Assembly: GCA_947498125.1 (NCBI GenBank)
Contig: CANMJH010000001.1
Location: 496,001-560,000 of the forward strand
DNA from: an uncultured Nioella sp.
GTDB taxonomy: Bacteria; Pseudomonadota; Alphaproteobacteria; Rhodobacterales; Rhodobacteraceae
DNA: 64,000 bases
Reading direction: 5' to 3'
Shown here: positions 20,993 through 30,847 of the stretch, piece by piece
How the letters are laid out: the number at the start of each line of letters is the position of its first letter
Numbering within the stretch: the stretch's first letter is position 1
Made by a program: the position numbers and the translations under genes
Notes under the pieces: model-generated
Database searches by the model: none
Seen by the model: the letters and a program-made list of their open reading frames with translations, nothing else
What the model was told of the DNA's origin: nothing

Positions 20993-21232
20993 TTAAGCGT
21001 CCTGGCCCTTGGCTTTTTCAATCCGAGCGGCCAGCCATTTGCGGCCAACCTGCTCGGCGCGGCGAATACGGACCGAGGTCATGAATGCCTCTTGCAGGGT
21101 TTGCGAAGCGGAATTCAATGTGGTCGAGAGCTGCTCGATCAAACGTTCATCTTGCAGCTCTGCTTCGGCCTCAAGCGCATCCATTGCCAGCTTATCGGCC
21201 AATTCCGTAATGAAATCGCCGCCGCCTGACAT
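20993..21232 (-). CDS. conserved small protein, helical, unknown function
   Basis: A 79-residue, mostly helical soluble protein (acidic N-terminal half, basic C-terminal half) with no recognised motif. Its ATG overlaps the stop of the upstream hydrolase as TAATG, strong evidence that it is a real, translationally coupled gene. Confidence 0.7.
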   Translation of the reverse strand: MSGGGDFITELADKLAMDALEAEAELQDERLIEQLSTTLNSASQTLQEAFMTSVRIRRAEQVGRKWLAARIEKAKGQDA

Positions 21233-21885
21233 TAGCGGGTCGTCTCGGTCAGGCGACGCCGAACATAGGTTTGCACGCTGTCGATCATTGGATCCATGTG
21301 AGGATCTTCAAAGAAATGCCCGGCGCCATCCATTTCCTGATGGGTAACGGTTATGCCTTTTTGCTCGTGCAGCTTGTCAACAAGGATACGCGTATCTTGC
21401 GGTTTGGCCACACGGTCGGCCGAGCCATTGATGACAAGACCAGAAGACGGGCAGGGCGCGAGGAACGAGAAATCATACATATTTGCAGGCGGGCTGACCG
21501 AGATGAACCCAGTGATCTCGGGCCGGCGCATCAGCAGCTGCATGCCAATCCAAGCGCCAAAACTAAAGCCAGCAACCCAGCAATGTTTGGAGTTTTGGTT
21601 CATCGATTGCAGGTAATCCAGCGCCGATGCTGCATCAGACAGCTCGCCAATGCCCTGGTCATATTCGCCCTGGCTGCGCCCGACGCCGCGGAAGTTAAAC
21701 CGTAACACTGTGAATCCCATGTTATGGAACGCGTAATGCAGGTTGTAGACCACGCGATTGTTCATCGTTCCGCCAAATTGCGGATGCGGATGCAGGATGA
21801 TTGCGATGGGGGCGTCTTTGGATTTCTGCGGATGGTAGCGGCCTTCAAGCCGGCCTTCTGGTCCGGGAAATATCACCTCGGGCAT
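21232..21885 (-). CDS. alpha/beta hydrolase
   Basis: A 217-residue hydrolase with the oxyanion motif LHPHPQFGGTMNN, RFNFRGVGRSQG after strand 4, nucleophile elbow AGFSFGAW (Ser), acid around NGSADRVAKP, and catalytic His in GAGHFFED. This pattern matches the 'YfhR/osmC-linked' small hydrolases; the substrate is unknown. The ATG at 21885 is preceded by AAGGAA at 7 nt; a longer frame to 21957 would run over the divergent promoter region of iscR. Confidence 0.85.
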   Translation of the reverse strand: MPEVIFPGPEGRLEGRYHPQKSKDAPIAIILHPHPQFGGTMNNRVVYNLHYAFHNMGFTVLRFNFRGVGRSQGEYDQGIGELSDAASALDYLQSMNQNSKHCWVAGFSFGAWIGMQLLMRRPEITGFISVSPPANMYDFSFLAPCPSSGLVINGSADRVAKPQDTRILVDKLHEQKGITVTHQEMDGAGHFFEDPHMDPMIDSVQTYVRRRLTETTR

Positions 21886-21935
21886 CGCGGTTCCTTGCGT
21901 TTTTGTACGGGTTGCGCGGTGCCATCGTGCATTTG

Positions 21936-21974
21936 TTGACGAAGGCTTTGTAAGCAACCTAGAATGGTTCTAAT
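21936..21974 (+). promoter_or_regulatory. predicted iscR-suf promoter with overlapping Irr/ICE-like box
   Basis: TTGACG (21936-21941), an 18-nt spacer and TAGAAT (21960-21965) form a candidate sigma-70 promoter. The -10 is part of the symmetric sequence TAGAA-TGG-TTCTA (21960-21972). That matches the core of the ICE motif (TTTAGAA-N3-TTCTAAA) described for the iron regulator Irr in alphaproteobacteria, where suf operons are known targets. Irr bound here would cover the -10. Confidence 0.65.
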
Positions 21975-22091
21975 CAGGGGCCTAAGCAAAGTTGCAAAGG
22001 CGGGTGGATCGCAGTTAAGCCTCCTTGGCGGAAAGGTCAATCTTTTGAACGAGCTTGGCCCGCACGGAGCATGAAAAATGCGGAGTTTTGA

Positions 22092-22553
22092 ATGAAACTG
22101 AGTACCAAAGGGCGTTACGCGATGGTGGCATTGGCGGATTTGGCCCTCCAGAAGGAGGGGGAATTGTCGTCGCTGTCGGAAATTTCCGCCCGGCAGGATA
22201 TCTCGTTGCCGTATCTGGAGCAGCTTTTTGTGAAGCTGCGCCGCGCGGGATTGGTGGACTCGGTCCGCGGTCCGGGGGGCGGGTATCGTCTGGCGCGGGC
22301 AACATCGGATATTCGTGTTGTTGATGTGTTGAGCGCCGTGGATGAAACGGTCAGCGCGCTGCATACCGGCGCTGGCGCGTCTGGCGGCGCGTCGGGCAGC
22401 CGGGCCCAATCGCTGACCAACCGGCTTTGGGAGGGGCTGTCGGCCCATGTCTATGTGTTTTTGCATCAGGCCCGTTTGTCGGATGTCATCAAGAATGACT
22501 TGATGCCCTGTCCGGCTGTGCCGTCGCTTTTGCAAGTCGTGGACGAGGAATAA
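22092..22553 (+). CDS. iscR: Rrf2-family regulator IscR, lacking the usual cluster ligands
   Basis: A 153-residue Rrf2 protein whose winged helix is close to E. coli IscR (KGRYAMVALADLALQ, SLPYLEQLFVKLRRAGLVDSVRGPGGGYRL). In the ligand loop, where IscR has three Cys and a His, this protein reads HTGAGASGGASGSRAQSLTNRLW: no Cys and Asn instead of His. The only Cys is near the C-terminus (MPCPAV). Rhodobacter sphaeroides IscR is known to be cysteine-poor too, so this is a lineage trait carried further. It should regulate the following suf genes. Confidence 0.88.
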   Translation: MKLSTKGRYAMVALADLALQKEGELSSLSEISARQDISLPYLEQLFVKLRRAGLVDSVRGPGGGYRLARATSDIRVVDVLSAVDETVSALHTGAGASGGASGSRAQSLTNRLWEGLSAHVYVFLHQARLSDVIKNDLMPCPAVPSLLQVVDEE

Positions 22554-22658: not shown

Positions 22659-23705
22659 ATGCGGGAACGCACTTATCTGGATTGGAATGCGACAGCGCCG
22701 CTGCGCGATGAAGCGCGAACGGCCATGATCGCGGCGATGGATCTCGTCGGAAACCCGTCTTCGGTTCATTCTGAAGGGCGCGCGGCCGTGTCGCTGGTCG
22801 AGAAAGCCCGCGCGCAAGTGGCCGAAGCGATTGGGGCGCAGGGCGCGGATATCGTTTTTGTCTCGGGCGCAACCGAAGCGGCGGCCTTGGCGTTGAACGG
22901 GCGCGGGATTGTCGGATCGGCGATTGAGCATGATGCGGTGCGCGCGTGGATCAAGGAGGATTTGGCGGTTTCGCCCGATGGGCAAGTGAATGTGCCAGAG
23001 CCAGATCGCGCAACGCTGCAATTGGCAAATTCAGAAACCGGCATTGTGCAGGCTTTGCCCAAAGGTCTGGCCGTTTCAGATCTGACACAAGGGTTTGGCA
23101 AGATGCCGTTCGCCTTTGATTGGTCGGGGATCGATATGGGGCTGATCTCGGCCCATAAAATCGGGGGCCCGAAGGGAATCGGAGCGCTGGTTTTGCGGCG
23201 CGGTCTGGACGTGGAGGCTCAGATTCGGGGTGGCGGGCAAGAGATGGGGCGACGCTCGGGGACAGAGAACATAATTGGCATTGCTGGATTTGGTGGTGCG
23301 GCGGCTGCTGTCACACAAGATTTTGATAGTGGACGGTGGGAAGAGGTTGCCCAATTTAGAAATATTCTAGAAAAGGCTCTGGACCCGGACGGAAATACAA
23401 CTATTTTGGTCGGGAAAGGCGTAACGCGCCTGCCGAACACCACCTGTCTGGTTACACCGGGCTGGAAAGGCGAGACGCAGGTGATGCAAATGGACCTTTC
23501 TGGATTTGCCATTTCGGCAGGCTCGGCCTGCTCAAGCGGTAAGGTTAAATCCAGCTCGGTTTTGCGCGCTATGGGCTTTAGCGAGGCGGATGCAGGATGT
23601 GCAATCCGCATTTCGATTGGCCCGACAACAACGAAAGATCAAGTCATGGCATTTGCTGAGGCTTGGCTTGCTGCGCGGGGCCGGTTTTTGGCGCGCTCGG
23701 CGTAA
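22659..23705 (+). CDS. cysteine desulfurase, IscS/NifS type
   Basis: A 348-residue PLP enzyme that removes sulfur from cysteine as a persulfide. Fold-type I motifs: YLDWNATAPLRDEAR at the start, FVSGATEAAALAL, the PLP-lysine site LISAHKIGGPKGIGAL and the persulfide loop ISAGSACSSGKVKSSSVL with the active Cys. It is shorter than E. coli IscS (404). It stands between iscR and sufB, so the operon encodes two desulfurases; SufS is at the other end. The ATG at 22659 is preceded by AAGGAAATACGC. Confidence 0.9.
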   Translation: MRERTYLDWNATAPLRDEARTAMIAAMDLVGNPSSVHSEGRAAVSLVEKARAQVAEAIGAQGADIVFVSGATEAAALALNGRGIVGSAIEHDAVRAWIKEDLAVSPDGQVNVPEPDRATLQLANSETGIVQALPKGLAVSDLTQGFGKMPFAFDWSGIDMGLISAHKIGGPKGIGALVLRRGLDVEAQIRGGGQEMGRRSGTENIIGIAGFGGAAAAVTQDFDSGRWEEVAQFRNILEKALDPDGNTTILVGKGVTRLPNTTCLVTPGWKGETQVMQMDLSGFAISAGSACSSGKVKSSSVLRAMGFSEADAGCAIRISIGPTTTKDQVMAFAEAWLAARGRFLARSA

Positions 23706-23735: not shown

Positions 23736-23772
23736 AAAAGTAATACCGCCACGGCGGGCAGATGGAGTGGAT

Positions 23773-25293
23773 ATGGCAGTTCTTGAGACCGAAGTGCGCG
23801 AAGGCGTCGATCGCGAAACCGTTGAGACCGTTCAGGCCATGGGCGGTAAGTATAAATACGGTTGGGAAACCGAGATCGAGATGGAATACGCGCCGAAGGG
23901 TTTGAACGAGAACATCGTTCGCCTGATTTCGGAGAAGAATAACGAACCAGAGTGGATGCTGGATTGGCGTCTGCAAGCGTTCAAACGCTGGAAACTGATG
24001 ACCGAGCCGGATTGGGCGTTGCTCAACTATCCTGAGATCGATTTTCAGGATCAGTATTACTATGCCAAACCCAAATCTATGGAAGAAAAGCCAAAGAGCT
24101 TGGATGACGTCGATCCAAAGCTGCTGGCGACCTATGAAAAATTGGGCATCCCTCTGAAAGAGCAGATGATTTTGGCAGGCGTCGAAGGCGCCGAGGATGC
24201 GCCTGCTGAGGGCCGAAAAGTGGCCGTGGATGCTGTGTTTGACTCGGTTTCTGTTGGCACGACCTTCCAAAAGGAACTGGCCGAAGCAGGTGTAATTTTC
24301 TGCTCGATCTCTGAGGCCATTCAGAACCATCCAGAGCTGGTGAAGAAATATCTGGGCTCGGTTGTGCCGATCACCGATAATTTCTATGCGACGCTGAACT
24401 CTGCTGTCTTCTCGGATGGCTCGTTTGTCTATGTGCCGCCGGGCGTGCGTTGCCCGATGGAGCTGAGCACCTATTTCCGGATCAATGCCGAAAATACCGG
24501 GCAGTTTGAGCGGACGCTGATCATCGCCGATAAAGAGGCCTATGTCAGCTATCTCGAAGGCTGCACTGCCCCGCAGCGTGATACCACTCAGCTTCATGCG
24601 GCGGTTGTTGAACTTGTGCTTTTGGATGATGCCGAGATCAAATATTCGACCGTTCAAAACTGGTTCCCCGGGGATGAAAACGGCGTTGGTGGCATCTATA
24701 ACTTCGTGACCAAACGCGCCGATTGCCGGGGTGCGCGGTCGAAAGTGATGTGGACGCAAGTTGAGACCGGATCAGCAATTACCTGGAAATACCCGTCCTG
24801 CATTTTGCGCGGCGACGACAGCCAGGGCGAGTTCTACTCGATCGCCATCGCCAACAACTACCAGCAGGCCGATACCGGCACCAAGATGATCCATTTGGGC
24901 AAGAACACCAAGTCGCGGATCGTTTCTAAGGGCATCTCGGCCGGCAAGGCGCAGAATACCTATCGCGGGCTCGTGACGATGCATCAAAAAGCCAAGGATG
25001 CCCGGAACTATACGCAATGTGACTCGCTTCTGATCGGTAGCGAATGCGGCGCGCATACGGTGCCCTATATCGAGGTCAAGAATAACTCGGCGCGGGTTGA
25101 GCATGAGGCGACGACATCGAAAGTGGATGACGACCAGCTGTTCTATTGCCGTCAGCGCGGCATGGATGAGGAAGAGGCCGTCGCCTTGGTTGTGAACGGG
25201 TTCTGCAAGGAAGTTCTGCAAGCGCTGCCGATGGAATTTGCCATGGAAGCCCAGCAATTGGTGGCCATCTCTCTCGAAGGGTCGGTTGGATAG
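23773..25293 (+). CDS. sufB: Fe-S cluster scaffold subunit SufB
   Basis: This 506-residue protein is the SufB core of the SufBC2D scaffold for iron-sulfur assembly. It shows the beta-helix core with [41 protein letters not shown] and [20 protein letters not shown], the last carrying a conserved Cys, plus C-terminal [22 protein letters not shown] 23773 has GGAG 5 nt upstream; an in-frame GTG sits at 23767. Length is normal. The operon continues after a strong hairpin at 25322-25352. Confidence 0.96.
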
Positions 25294-25377: not shown

Positions 25378-25566
25378 ATGACGACAATTCGCACTTTTTT
25401 GATCCCAGCAGCTTTGACAGGCGCGTTTTGCGCGTGCTTTGCGCTGACGGTTGATCTGGTGCTGTCCATGGTCAACCAATGGCAAGTTGCGGGTCTTGCG
25501 GCTGTATCTGGCTTTCTCGGCTCGATCTTTTCGCGGATTGTTCTTGGGCTTGGACGCGACAAATGA
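25378..25566 (+). CDS. 62-residue membrane protein inside the suf operon
   Basis: Two hydrophobic helices (about residues 6-30 and 37-56) with a short loop and a basic end (LGLGRDK); Cys18 and Cys20 lie in the first helix. No family is recognised. The stop overlaps the FkbM start codon (ATGA), implying coupled translation. Position between sufB and sufC makes it a candidate accessory factor, but nothing in the sequence shows a role. Confidence 0.65.
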   Translation: MTTIRTFLIPAALTGAFCACFALTVDLVLSMVNQWQVAGLAAVSGFLGSIFSRIVLGLGRDK

Positions 25567-26372
25567 CCCATACGTATTTTGACCCATATGAGGTTGAAAA
25601 CCTGCACGCCGAAGTGCGCCGCGCACTGGGCAATAAAAACCGGTTTTGGGCGCCCGATGGCGCGCAGGTCATCGTTTCGCACCGCTATGAAAAACCTGTG
25701 TTCTTCACGATCAACAACGAAGGCGACCGCATTCATAAACGTCAGGGGCGGGGACATTTCTTCGAGGATGATCAGCTAGAGTTTTTGGCGAAGTTCATGC
25801 CCGAAGGCGGCACCTTTTGCGACATCGGGGCCAATATTGGCAATCATAGCCTCTATATGCTGCTGTTTGGCGGCGCGGCGCGGGCGTTGGCCTTTGAACC
25901 GAACCCCAAAACGCTGCGGCTGTTCATGTCGAATATGATCCTGAATGGTGTTGTGGACCGTGTGGCCCTCGACCTTCTTGGGTATGGGCTGTCGGAAGAG
26001 GATGACGAGGGGTGGGCCATCAACATGGTCTCGAAAAACCTTGGTCAGGCAAAGCTTAAGAAAAGCGGCGGCTCTGTTCCGGTGCGCAAGGGCGATACGC
26101 TAATTGGCGATACAAATGTGGATCTGATCAAGATCGACGTTGAGGGCATGGAAATGGGTGCTCTAGCGGGGCTTGAAGCCACCGTTGCGCGCTGCCGTCC
26201 GCCGATTTTCATCGAAGTTGACCACGAAAACCGCGACGCGTTTGATCGGCTGATGATGGAATGGAAATACCAGCTGAGCCAGAGTTTTCCACCCGCTCGA
26301 AATAACCAAAACCTACTGCTTGTGCCCGCAGAGCGGGCCGAGGAGTACCCGAAACCCGGAGATGCGCCATGA
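25563..26372 (+). CDS. FkbM-family SAM methyltransferase
   Basis: A 269-residue protein with the FkbM pattern: GGTFCDIGANIGNHSLYM as SAM motif I, ALAFEPNPKTLRLFMSNMILNG as motif II and VDLIKIDVEGMEMGALAG further on. Members methylate hydroxyl groups on sugars and other small molecules; the acceptor is unknown. ATG 25563 overlaps the previous stop. It separates sufB from sufC, which is unusual for a methyltransferase with no evident Fe-S role. Confidence 0.85.
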   Translation: MTHTYFDPYEVENLHAEVRRALGNKNRFWAPDGAQVIVSHRYEKPVFFTINNEGDRIHKRQGRGHFFEDDQLEFLAKFMPEGGTFCDIGANIGNHSLYMLLFGGAARALAFEPNPKTLRLFMSNMILNGVVDRVALDLLGYGLSEEDDEGWAINMVSKNLGQAKLKKSGGSVPVRKGDTLIGDTNVDLIKIDVEGMEMGALAGLEATVARCRPPIFIEVDHENRDAFDRLMMEWKYQLSQSFPPARNNQNLLLVPAERAEEYPKPGDAP

Positions 26373-26445
26373 CGGAATTCCCCGTCGGCGCCCGTGAAAC
26401 AAATGAATGCGCTGCTTGAAACGCGGCAGCTTGAAAGGAAAAGAC

Positions 26446-27201
26446 ATGTTGGAAATCAAAAACTTGCACGTCTCTTTGGAAGAAGAAGACAAAGAGATCT
26501 TGAAGGGCGTTGACCTGACGGTTGAAGCTGGGAAAGTCCATGCGATCATGGGGCCAAACGGTTCGGGTAAATCCACATTGTCTTATGTGTTGTCCGGCAA
26601 AGATGGCTATGAAGTCACTGCTGGCGAAGCCATGATGGGTGGCGAAGACCTGCTGGACATGGAAGCAGAAGAGCGCGCAGCGGCGGGCCTTTTCCTTGCC
26701 TTCCAATACCCTGTGGAAATCCCGGGCGTTGGCAACATGACCTTCCTGCGGACGGCGGTGAATTCACAGCGCAAAGCGCGCGGCGAAGAAGAGATGAGCG
26801 CGGCCGAGTTCCTTAAAGTGATCCGTGCCAAAGCCAAAACGCTGAAAATCGACGCGGATATGCTGAAACGCCCCGTCAATGTCGGCTTTTCCGGCGGCGA
26901 GAAAAAGCGCAATGAGATCCTGCAAATGGCGATGCTGGAACCCACCATGTGCATCTTGGATGAGACGGATTCGGGCCTGGACGTTGATGCGATGAAACTG
27001 GTCGCAGAAGGCGTGAACGCGCTGCGTGATGAAGGCCGGGGTTTCCTTGTTATCACCCATTACCAGCGCCTGCTGGACCATATCAAACCCGACGTGGTGC
27101 ACATCATGGCAAATGGCCGGATCGTGAAAACCGGCGGGCCCGAGCTGGCGCTTGAAGTTGAACAGAATGGCTATGCTGACATTCTGGCGGAGGTGGCATA
27201 A
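26446..27201 (+). CDS. sufC: SufC ATPase
   Basis: A 251-residue ABC-type ATPase that powers the SufBCD scaffold in the cytosol. Walker A is GPNGSGKST, the signature FSGGEKKRNEILQMA, Walker B MCILDETDSGLDVDA with the SufC-specific Asp-Glu-Thr, and the H-loop VITHYQRLL. The start MLEIKNLHVS follows AAAGGAAA; the in-frame ATG at 26407 is not needed. Stop overlaps the sufD ATG (TAATG). Confidence 0.97.
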   Translation: MLEIKNLHVSLEEEDKEILKGVDLTVEAGKVHAIMGPNGSGKSTLSYVLSGKDGYEVTAGEAMMGGEDLLDMEAEERAAAGLFLAFQYPVEIPGVGNMTFLRTAVNSQRKARGEEEMSAAEFLKVIRAKAKTLKIDADMLKRPVNVGFSGGEKKRNEILQMAMLEPTMCILDETDSGLDVDAMKLVAEGVNALRDEGRGFLVITHYQRLLDHIKPDVVHIMANGRIVKTGGPELALEVEQNGYADILAEVA

Positions 27202-28496
27202 TGGCTGCCCCTCAACCTAAATTGGACCCGCTGGCCGCTCGGCTGGAAGGGCTAAGCTTGCCAAAGGGCGCAGCTTGGGCAACCGATGCACGGGAAGCCG
27301 CCCTTGGCCGTTTGACTGCAATGGGCTTGCCGACCAAGCGCGATGAGTATTGGAAATACACCGATCCAAGCAGCCTGACGCAAGCGGGCGCGCCAAAAGC
27401 GACGCTGTTCGACACCGGCGAGGCGCCGCTGTTTGATGCCGTGGACCGGTTGAAGCTGGTCTTCGTTGACGGCGTTTTTGATGCGGCGTTGAGCGATAGT
27501 TTCGACTTAGAAGGTGTTGAAATAGAACAAATTTCCGACGCCATGTCGCATGACATTCATTGGGCGAAGGACGTCTACGGTGTGCTTGAAGCGGATGGCC
27601 AAAACCCGGTTGAGCGCCCATTGGCGGCGCTGAACACCGCCTTCGCGGCAGAAGGTGTTGCGATCCGTGTGACCGGCGACGTGTCCAAGCCGATTAACTT
27701 CGTCTACCTGCACCGCAATGAAACCTCGGACGCGATGTTGCATCATGTGATCCGTGTCGAAAAAGACGCTAAGCTGACGCTATTGGAAAATGGTCCGGCG
27801 GCAGCGCGTTTTTCGAAGTCGATGGAAGTTGATATCGCAGATGGGGCAGAGTTCCATCATGTGCGCGCCCAGGGCCGTGATCATGAGCGCCGGGCCTCGA
27901 CCCATATTTTCACGCGTTTGGGCGAGCGCTCTGTGTTCAAATCCTTTACCCTGACCGTGAACGGCGTGCTGACCCGCAATGAAGCTGTGATTGATATTCG
28001 CGGTGACAATGCGGTGGCTCATATTGCAGGCGCTGCGCTTGGCGACGGGGCGACAGGTGATTTTCACCATGACGACACCGTTTTCATTACCCATGACGCG
28101 CAACATTGCGAAAGCCGTCAGGTCTTTAAAAAGGTGCTCCGCAATGGAGCGACGGGTGTCTTTCAAGGCAAAATCCTTGTTAAGCCAGACGCGCAGAAAA
28201 CCGATGGCTATCAGCTAAGCCAATCGCTGCTTTTGGATGACGATTCCATCTTCCAGGCCAAGCCAGAGCTGGAAATCTACGCCGATGACGTTGTGTGCAG
28301 CCACGGCTCGACCACGGGCGCGATCGATGAAGAGGCGCTGTTTTACCTGCGCTCTCGCGGTGTTCCGGAAGGCCCGGCAACGGATCTGTTGGTCTTGGCC
28401 TTTTTGGCGGAAGCAATCGACGAGATTGAAGACGAATCCCTGCGCGAAGACATTCTGGCGCGGCTCGAAGGCTGGCTTGAAAGACACGGGAGCTGA
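27201..28496 (+). CDS. sufD: Fe-S assembly protein SufD
   Basis: This 431-residue paralogue of SufB completes the SufBC2D complex. It has the typical N-terminal helical region with KRDEYWKYTDPSSL, a beta-helix core and the conserved C-terminal CSHGSTTGAIDEEALFYLRSRGVPEGPATDLLVLAFL. ATG 27201 overlaps the sufC stop, with GGAGG just before it. No oddities. Confidence 0.96.
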   Translation: MAAPQPKLDPLAARLEGLSLPKGAAWATDAREAALGRLTAMGLPTKRDEYWKYTDPSSLTQAGAPKATLFDTGEAPLFDAVDRLKLVFVDGVFDAALSDSFDLEGVEIEQISDAMSHDIHWAKDVYGVLEADGQNPVERPLAALNTAFAAEGVAIRVTGDVSKPINFVYLHRNETSDAMLHHVIRVEKDAKLTLLENGPAAARFSKSMEVDIADGAEFHHVRAQGRDHERRASTHIFTRLGERSVFKSFTLTVNGVLTRNEAVIDIRGDNAVAHIAGAALGDGATGDFHHDDTVFITHDAQHCESRQVFKKVLRNGATGVFQGKILVKPDAQKTDGYQLSQSLLLDDDSIFQAKPELEIYADDVVCSHGSTTGAIDEEALFYLRSRGVPEGPATDLLVLAFLAEAIDEIEDESLREDILARLEGWLERHGS

Positions 28497-28499
28497 CAC

Positions 28500-29030
28500 T
28501 TGGCTGTCACCACCAATATCTTGCGTTCTTATGTGGCGCCGCGACTGGTGTTGCGGCGCCTCATTGCCTCAACCTCTGTTGATGATCGCCCCGAGGCGCG
28601 GGGGTTCATTTATCTGCTGGTTGGGTTCTTTTTGCTGTTTGTTGGGCAAATCCCTGACCTAATGGGCATCGGGATCAATGGGTTTGAGGTTTCGGACGAA
28701 GCGTTTGGCGAGGATGGGCGGCCATCGGTGCAGCAAAGCCTGATGATCACGCTGTTTTTTACACTGACGGTGTGGCCCATCGTGTTTTATCTGATCGGCG
28801 GTCTGTCACATGTGATTGCTAAACTTGTCGGAGGGCAGGGCGAAGCGGCCCATGCACGCCTGGCGCTCTTTTGGGCGGTTCTGGCGGTGTCTCCGCTGTT
28901 TTTGCTCCGTGGAATTGGCAGTGTCAGCCAAGTGCCGGCGCTTGTTCAGACCTGTAACTGGGCCATTGTCTTGGCATTTTTCTGGATCTGGCTGATGGGC
29001 CTTTATGAAGCGGAACGTGCAAATGCCTGA
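28500..29030 (+). CDS. YIP1-like membrane protein 1
   Basis: A 176-residue protein with four to five hydrophobic segments (about residues 39-56, 79-101, 119-138 and 148-168) in the plan of the YIP1 family. The start is TTG at 28500, preceded by GGGAG. It begins directly after sufD and its stop overlaps the start of a second, similar gene. Function in bacteria is unknown; membership in the suf operon is clear from spacing. Confidence 0.7.
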   Translation: MAVTTNILRSYVAPRLVLRRLIASTSVDDRPEARGFIYLLVGFFLLFVGQIPDLMGIGINGFEVSDEAFGEDGRPSVQQSLMITLFFTLTVWPIVFYLIGGLSHVIAKLVGGQGEAAHARLALFWAVLAVSPLFLLRGIGSVSQVPALVQTCNWAIVLAFFWIWLMGLYEAERANA

Positions 29031-29607
29031 GTTTTTAAACGCCTCGGGAATTATGGAATTGATCCGTATGATGGTCACGGATCCGCGCGCCGCTTTTCGG
29101 CGTGTTGATGCGGCGGGTCTTCCGGTCAATGCTCTGTGGCTGATTTTTCTGATCCTGTCTGCTGCGGGCGCGATCATAAACATCGTGACCCTCGATTTAA
29201 CGCCCGAGATTTTCCGCGCCGGGCTGCCGCCAATGACAAGCATGGTCGCGTCTATGGCCGAGCTTTTCTTTTCAATGACGGTGCTGTTTGGGGCTTATGT
29301 GATTGGGCGCAAGTGCCGGGGAACCGGTCGGTTCGATCAGGTTTTGGCCGCTGTTTGCCTGATAAAAATGATGAGCGTTTCAATCTCGATTTTGCAAATT
29401 GTCGCCATCTTCATGATGCCGCTTTTGGCGTCGCTTTTGGGCTTTGTCGGTCTGGTCTATATGCTCTGGCTGATGGTGCAGCTCATTTCGGAAGTCCATG
29501 GGTTTACCCAATTGTCATTGGTATTTTTGGGCGTCATTTTCTCCTTACTTGCCGCGTTTTTTCTTTTTGGCATCCTCCTCACAACCTTCGGCGTAAAGCC
29601 TCTTTGA
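29023..29607 (+). CDS. YIP1-like membrane protein 2
   Basis: About 194 residues with a soluble N-terminus (ASGIMELIRMMVTDPRAAFRRVDAAGLP) followed by five hydrophobic segments; this opening is typical of YIP1-family proteins. I prefer ATG 29023, which overlaps the stop of the previous gene, over ATG 29005. It ends 19 nt before sufS. Together with the preceding gene it forms a tandem pair of related membrane proteins. Confidence 0.75.
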   Translation: MPEFLNASGIMELIRMMVTDPRAAFRRVDAAGLPVNALWLIFLILSAAGAIINIVTLDLTPEIFRAGLPPMTSMVASMAELFFSMTVLFGAYVIGRKCRGTGRFDQVLAAVCLIKMMSVSISILQIVAIFMMPLLASLLGFVGLVYMLWLMVQLISEVHGFTQLSLVFLGVIFSLLAAFFLFGILLTTFGVKPL

Positions 29608-29626: not shown

Positions 29627-30847
29627 ATGTATGATATCGAAAAAATCCGGGCCGATTTCCCTATCCTGTCGCGAGAGGTGAATGGCAAACCGCTTGTCTA
29701 TCTCGATAACGGCGCATCGGCCCAAAAACCTCAGGTGGTGATCGATGCCGTGACGCGCGGCTATGCCGAAGAATATGCAAATGTGCATCGCGGCCTACAT
29801 TATCTGTCGAACCTCGCGACCGAGAAATACGAAGGCGTGCGCGGCACGATTGCGCGGTTCTTGGGGGTGAAAGACGAAAATGAGATCGTTTTTACCAGCG
29901 GCACAACCGAGGCCATAAACCTTGTCAGCTACGCATGGGCCGCGCCGCGAATGGGGCCGGGCGATGAGATTATCCTGAGCGCGGCAGAGCATCACGCCAA
30001 TATCATTCCGTGGCATTTCCTGCGCGAGCGCCTAGGGGTGAAACTGGTCTGGGTCGATTTGGACGCCAATGATGAGATCGACCCCGAGGCGGTATTGTCG
30101 GCCATCACGCCAAAAACGAAACTGATTGCCGTGACCCATATGTCCAACGTCCTCGGCACTGTGGTGGATGTGAAAACCATCGTAGCAGGGGCGCATGAAC
30201 AAGGCGTGCCGGTTTTGGTCGATGGCAGTCAGGCAACGGTGCATATGCCCGTCAATCTCGACGAACTTGGCGCGGATTTTTATGCAATCACCGGGCACAA
30301 GCTGTATGGGCCGTCAGGATCCGGTGCGATCCATATTCGAAAAGACCGTTTAGCCGAGATGCAGCCCTTTTTGGGCGGCGGCGATATGATCCGCGATGTA
30401 GGGCGCGAAGAGGTGACCTACGCTGATGCGCCGATGAAGTTCGAAGCGGGCACGCCCGGCATCGTGCAGCAAATTGGGCTCGGCGTTGCGCTGGAGTATC
30501 TGATGGAGCTGGGCATGGAAAATGTCGCGGCCCATGAACGCCGCCTGCGCGATTACGCGCGTACGAAGTTGGATGGGCTGAACTGGCTGAATATTCAGGG
30601 AAACTCCGCCACCAAAGGGGCTATATTCTCCTTCACGTTGGAAGGCGCAGCGCATCCGCATGATATTTCAACCGTGCTGGATAAACGCGGCGTCGCCGTG
30701 CGGGCTGGGCATCACTGTGCCCAGCCATTGATGGATGTTCTGGGTGTTTCGGCGACCTGCCGCGCAAGTTTCGGACTTTACAATACACAAGCTGAGGTGG
30801 ACACGCTGGTGGACGCATTGGAGCTGTGTCACGAGCTTTTCGCCTGA
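29627..30847 (+). CDS. sufS: cysteine desulfurase SufS
   Basis: A 406-residue group-II desulfurase supplying persulfide to SufBCD. It begins MYDIEKIRADFPILSREVNGKPLVYLDNGASAQKP, has FTSGTTEAINLV, the PLP-lysine motif FYAITGHKLYGPSGSGA and the active-site RAGHHCAQPLM with Cys in a short loop, which distinguishes SufS from IscS. SufS needs a SufE or SufU partner; none is in this operon. Likely the last gene: GC-rich hairpins at 30875-30920 follow. Confidence 0.95.
   Translation: MYDIEKIRADFPILSREVNGKPLVYLDNGASAQKPQVVIDAVTRGYAEEYANVHRGLHYLSNLATEKYEGVRGTIARFLGVKDENEIVFTSGTTEAINLVSYAWAAPRMGPGDEIILSAAEHHANIIPWHFLRERLGVKLVWVDLDANDEIDPEAVLSAITPKTKLIAVTHMSNVLGTVVDVKTIVAGAHEQGVPVLVDGSQATVHMPVNLDELGADFYAITGHKLYGPSGSGAIHIRKDRLAEMQPFLGGGDMIRDVGREEVTYADAPMKFEAGTPGIVQQIGLGVALEYLMELGMENVAAHERRLRDYARTKLDGLNWLNIQGNSATKGAIFSFTLEGAAHPHDISTVLDKRGVAVRAGHHCAQPLMDVLGVSATCRASFGLYNTQAEVDTLVDALELCHELFA

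Follow-up and report, generated by a model that had tools for sequence, protein, structure and literature searches.

How an IscR protein that has lost the usual cluster ligands could control Fe-S cluster assembly is the question raised by the iscR gene in the 64,000-nucleotide stretch of an uncultured Nioella sp., an alphaproteobacterium of marine type, analysed here (the window). The gene is an open frame (22092..22553, + strand) encoding a 153-residue Rrf2-family regulator of the loop-less, single-Cys type. Its PF02082 domain scored 117.4 bits against a curated cut-off of 30, which places it in the Rrf2 superfamily, and TIGR02010 (IscR) was the best NCBIfam model at 140.5 bits, below the cut-off of 207.55. 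This cut-off is not decisive for the window protein, because L151, an alphaproteobacterial IscR of the canonical type whose loop is complete, also misses it at 192.9 bits. Identity as RirA was not supported, NF008886 giving 48.3 bits against a cut-off of 193. AlphaFold2 models were generated for the window IscR (mean pLDDT 82.0) and for L137, a relative that retains the loop (83.4). The former has the Rrf2/IscR fold, with a Z score of 17.4 to 4hf2_A over 115 residues; however, since pLDDT falls below 50 over the greater part of the loop and at the tail end, the model is silent on the geometry and distances of Cys140 and His125, the two residues discussed below.

The loop with three cysteines and one histidine that characterises canonical [2Fe-2S] IscR is not present in this protein as a ligand set. 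Alignment with sequences that keep the C-C-C-H ligands, with no gap at those columns, placed the lost positions at 22365..22421 (+ strand), where Thr92 (22365-22367) stands in the column of canonical C92, Ala100 (22389-22391) in that of C100, Ser107 (22410-22412) in that of C107 and Asn110 (22419-22421) in that of H110. The first-pass annotation had claimed that all loop ligands were replaced and that the only Cys lies near the C-terminus, and both claims hold; in its list of replacements (Ala/Gly/Ser/Gln and Asn) the Asn, Ala and Ser were correct, the first position is Thr, and Gln and Gly were mistaken. The only cysteine of the 153 residues is Cys140 (codon TGT, 22509..22511, + strand), which lies in a C-terminal P-C-P-A-V motif and is the equivalent of R. 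sphaeroides Cys142. The window protein also shares its fold with RsrR and NsrR, further members of the Rrf2 family, without having their ligand sets. In RsrR this set is Cys2His2. For NsrR, the part of the literature consulted gives three Cys and Asp8 from the other chain.

To place these changes, loci were drawn from named genomes (the best 80, hence skewed to close relatives), from 40 relatives, from a family-level draw of 394 genomes (its low-scoring and middle parts) and from a class-level draw of 190. After four identical copies and one fragment were dropped, 188 proteins were aligned. Besides the 80 named-genome loci, the classification covered about 80 of the 379 matching genomes in the family, lowest-scoring first, the rest scoring as close relatives. 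An iscR match at E 1e-12 was absent in 6 of 31 family genomes, and one more held fragments only. The aligned sequences fell into 144 that are loop-less with Cys140, 12 that carry the full Cys3-His loop together with Cys140 (the 'both' proteins, L112-L114, L132, L134 and L136-L142) and 32 with the loop only; all 12 'both' proteins belong to the family of the window and all 32 loop-only proteins lie outside it. An alignment of Rhodobacteraceae IscRs had been proposed as a check on the missing ligands, and it bears the claim out, as none of the 144 distinct loop-less sequences has the ligands and every one keeps Cys140, with its codon split between TGC (76) and TGT (68). The residue is likewise found in 12/12 'both' proteins and in 0/32 loop-only proteins. 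Sequence error or a pseudogene is thereby ruled out, since the whole loop-less class agrees with the IscR of the same-genus genome G001, which is 90% identical to that of the window, has lost the ligands and keeps Cys140. Glu43, a position at which a change has been studied in E. coli IscR according to the title of the 4hf2 entry, is invariant in 188/188 sequences. Canonical [2Fe-2S] IscRs (E. coli, Caulobacter and most sampled alphaproteobacteria) thus have this residue, the fold and the operon role in common with the window protein, but they keep the Cys3-His loop, and the 32 loop-only alphaproteobacterial sequences are without Cys140.

The gene context is equally characteristic. iscR opens an isc-suf operon and is followed on the + strand by genes for an iscS-like cysteine desulfurase (22659..23705, PF00266), sufB (23767..25293, PF01458 and PF19295), sufC (26407..27201, PF00005), sufD (27201..28496, PF01458) and sufS (29627..30847, PF00266 at 447.9 bits), with sufB, sufC and sufS named by operon position. 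Embedded within the suf operon are a gene for an FkbM-type methyltransferase between sufB and sufC (25479..26372, + strand, PF05050 at 59.6 bits), for which the ATG at 25479 may be placed too far upstream, and two genes for Yip1-type membrane proteins between sufD and sufS (28500-29030 and 29005-29607). An isc-suf operon of such layout has been described for Rhodobacter. With no loop ligands, one Cys in the C-terminal P-C-P-A-V, a place at the head of this operon and a phylogenetic position inside the loop-less clade (support 100/98), the window IscR is a typical representative of an unusual class that is already known, the single-Cys IscRs of Rhodobacteraceae. The best PDB sequence match (240.9 bits) is 7zpn_A, a crystal structure of Dinoroseobacter shibae IscR whose loop and tail are like those of the window protein; the structure library holds 128 residues for its 184-residue chain, and no paper on 7zpn was found in the literature searched.

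The best described member of this class is R. sphaeroides IscR (RSP_0443), which likewise has its single Cys in PCPAV, lacks the loop ligands and stands at the head of the isc-suf operon; we saw no difference of kind from the window protein, although the cofactor and repression data are those of the R. sphaeroides protein itself. The sections consulted of Remes et al. 2015 (PMC4618611) describe Rhodobacteraceae IscRs as having a single Cys, located towards the C-terminus, in line with the first-pass remark that the R. sphaeroides protein is Cys-poor. In the same sections the evidence for a cofactor consists of UV-visible absorbance only: a band at 420 nm appears upon Fe-S reconstitution, is lost in C142A and is retained in H93A, H121A, H127A, the triple His mutant and P143A. 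Repression of the protein's own promoter occurs only with iron, and the paper does not settle the other ligands or the type of cluster (PMC4618611, sections consulted). By the numbering of that paper, Pro141-Cys-Pro-Ala-Val145 and the three histidines correspond to window residues at a constant offset of two.

We consider it probable, by analogy with these data, that the window IscR is a feedback Fe-S sensor that carries a labile cluster through Cys140 and represses its own operon when clusters are plentiful. When Fe-S clusters are plentiful, such a cluster would be acquired through Cys140, probably with two protomers each contributing its cysteine, and the cluster-bearing protein would repress its isc-suf operon; under iron shortage or exposure to peroxides, the cluster would be lost and repression would end. 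The present analysis shows that the four loop ligands are lost, that Cys140 is invariant, which operon and promoter go with the gene, and in what order the changes took place (see below). Counting against the reading are the unusual ligand set that one Cys per chain makes, the confinement of the R. sphaeroides evidence consulted to UV-visible absorbance, and the two mismatches and shifted spacing of the window's IscR-like promoter box. That the window protein would behave like R. sphaeroides IscR, that two protomers would share the cofactor and which residues besides Cys140 would act as ligands are all matters of inference. The first-pass annotation had offered three options, namely the C-terminal Cys, a different cofactor or no cluster at all, and for the R. 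sphaeroides protein C142A argues for the first of them (PMC4618611, sections consulted). The third, a cluster-free regulator whose binding is ungated by any cofactor, had been proposed for the class before 2015, and it would account for the loss of all canonical ligands and for the description, in the sections consulted, of R. sphaeroides IscR binding DNA without a cluster. It is nevertheless very improbable, given the full conservation of Cys140 and, in the sections consulted of PMC4618611, the iron-dependent repression and Cys-dependent chromophore of the R. sphaeroides protein.

The residues next to Cys140 bear on the option of a different cofactor. P-C-P-A-V fits a heme regulatory motif, and Pro141 follows the cysteine in 137/144 loop-less sequences, so that Cys140-Pro141 could in principle sense heme instead of Fe-S. 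However, the cysteine is kept without the proline in the other 7/144 and in 3/12 'both' proteins, and the corresponding P143A protein retains the 420 nm band (PMC4618611, sections consulted); heme is not favoured, and we regard a heme regulator as scarcely probable.

Among the 144 loop-less sequences, 23 positions are invariant, mostly in the DNA-binding part, and the lowest pairwise identity is 37%. Cys140 and His125 (codon CAT, 22464..22466, + strand) are the sole invariant Cys or His among them. His125 is present in 144/144 loop-less, 3/12 'both' and 0/32 loop-only proteins, and this distribution, invariant in the first group, rare in the second and absent in the third, makes it a candidate cofactor partner. 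Both residues are still kept in L144 (genome G189) and L143 (genome G107), two strongly diverged loop-less IscRs. The invariance speaks for strong constraint on His125, yet with the loop-less proteins mostly in a single clade it can scarcely count for more than one or two separate events. A site of the form (His125)2(Cys140)2 shared between protomers, resembling a Rieske or RsrR cluster and with His125 fixed upon loop loss, would explain why just these two residues are invariant and why His125 is so seldom found while the loop persists. The R. sphaeroides mutants speak against this arrangement: the 420 nm band is kept both in the triple His mutant and in H127A, which by the offset of two corresponds to His125 (PMC4618611, sections consulted). 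Moreover, on the tree the three 'both' proteins that have His125 cluster with L144, the outlying loop-less sequence, so the histidine may simply have been inherited. On balance such a site seems unlikely, and a labile cluster held through Cys140 remains our preferred reading.

The order in which these features arose was examined on a tree built from 87 of the 161 sequences, the ligand columns and the tail being omitted. The window's family forms one side of a branch with 100/100 support. Within it 50 of the 51 loop-less sequences form a clade (100/98), with the 'both' sequences adjoining; the remaining one, the long-branched L144, is placed among the 'both' sequences. The C-terminal Cys requires a single change on this tree, and the loop states three in all. 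Neither a single loop-less clade that includes L144 (p-AU 0.43) nor a common clade uniting all 12 'both' proteins (p-AU 0.35) was rejected, and there may have been two independent losses of the loop, L144 being the second. Under either topology the tail Cys precedes loop loss, because the outgroup has the loop without the tail Cys. The C-terminal Cys was thus gained with the Cys3-His loop still present, and the loop was lost afterwards. The early-branching 'both' members limit the claim that Rhodobacteraceae IscRs are without loop cysteines. Three points may be new, none having been found in the open-access literature searched: that the tail Cys preceded loop loss, that 'both' proteins exist and that His125 became fixed. 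The presence of RirA was also considered as a correlate of loop loss and rejected, the matches being scattered and all below the cut-off (17/28 genomes at E 1e-20).

Since it is present beside an intact Cys3-His site, the tail Cys had a role other than replacing that site. This is compatible with Cys140 acting as a thiol switch or contact site that senses peroxide, any cluster being adventitious or secondary. The single Cys of R. sphaeroides IscR lies at the surface by a homology model, as described in the sections consulted, and in the same species the response of the iscR promoter P2 to an organic peroxide is gone without IscR. Iron-dependent repression and a chromophore that forms on Fe-S reconstitution (PMC4618611, sections consulted) are at odds with such a switch, which we hold to be rather improbable. 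The same intermediates would also be expected had a His125/Cys140 replacement site, drawn from both protomers, been built in two steps beside a working Cys3-His site; this is a doubtful proposition, but if true the family would preserve a ligand relocation in mid-course, its members ranging from proteins with the old site through those with both to those with only the new one. The 'both' intermediates and the His125 fixed in the loop-less class provide, with two point mutants, a small natural set of proteins for the ligation question, which becomes easier to test for an Fe-S cluster with one Cys per chain.

The promoter of iscR was compared across the same loci. In the window a degenerate IscR-like box, TTGAC-N7-GTC (21936..21950, + strand), was recognised from the family footprint with two mismatches, and its TTGAC (21936-21940) is a likely -35 element. 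Within one mismatch this pattern was found at 84/144 loop-less loci, against 13/144 in one shuffle; the window's two-mismatch box is no better than the commonest best match among shuffled upstream regions. The pattern fits either an IscR operator or a RirA-like one. The box is the candidate in the window for the Iron-Rhodo-box, the regulatory IscR site expected upstream of iscR in the single-Cys class. Downstream of it lies an Irr-type box, TTAGAA-N3-TTCTAA (21959..21973, + strand), with one mismatch and identified by its likeness to an R. sphaeroides Irr site. Where there was enough flank, such a box within two mismatches was present upstream of iscR at 81/117 loop-less and 8/12 'both' loci, the latter thus resembling the window in this respect as in their C-terminal PC motif, and at 0/32 loop-only loci. 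The TTGAC-N7-GTC box starts 22 bases before the Irr-type box in 71/81 of these loop-less promoters and 8/8 of the 'both' promoters, the window being one base off this fixed distance, and it likely supplies the -35 element of the iscR promoter. The Irr-type promoter box is also decayed in the same-genus genome. TTAGAA-N3-TTCTAA had been considered as the IscR box itself, wrongly, as the Rhodobacter paper names such a sequence an Irr site; the same paper reports that binding of Irr to the P2 (iscR) promoter could not be confirmed.

The coding sequence of iscS contains another Irr-type box (23356..23370, + strand), identified by its match to the Irr-type pattern, in codons for FRNILE that use AGA and CTA. 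Its 15 bases are identical to those of the site that Irr binds near promoter P3 in R. sphaeroides. Within one mismatch the box was found at 70/139 loop-less and 0/30 loop-only loci, and the 'both' loci differ from the window in having it at 0/12. Where the box peptide could be located, its Arg is encoded by AGA in 51/88 loop-less, 1/8 'both' and 0/17 loop-only sequences, and its Leu by CTA in 48/84, 0/8 and 0/16, respectively. This codon preference in loop-less operons points to selection at the DNA level within the coding sequence, and the box looks like the mark of regulatory selection inside a gene, its appearance coinciding with loop loss. Five Irr-type sites within one mismatch were counted in the whole genome, two of them in the isc-suf operon.

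No second canonical IscR was found among the three other Rrf2 proteins of the same genome that were tested, TIGR02010 giving 30-37 bits. L002 and L004 are Rrf2 proteins with Cys clusters that are RirA/NsrR-like by score, below the cut-offs. L005 (C1:1786527-1786919) is an Rrf2-family gene with an in-frame TAG within the match and is possibly a pseudogene.

Upstream of iscR and divergent from it is a gene for an alpha/beta hydrolase (21232..21957, - strand, PF12146), whose listed TTG start is probably too early. RSP_0444 occupies the corresponding place in R. sphaeroides, and by this analogy the hydrolase is likely its homologue. In the interval 5' of iscR, at about 21990-22050, a GGTCAAT was noticed by eye; the complementary strand reads ATTGACC followed by a TTAACT-like hexamer. 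This stretch may serve the divergent hydrolase gene as its promoter, which in R. sphaeroides is P5.
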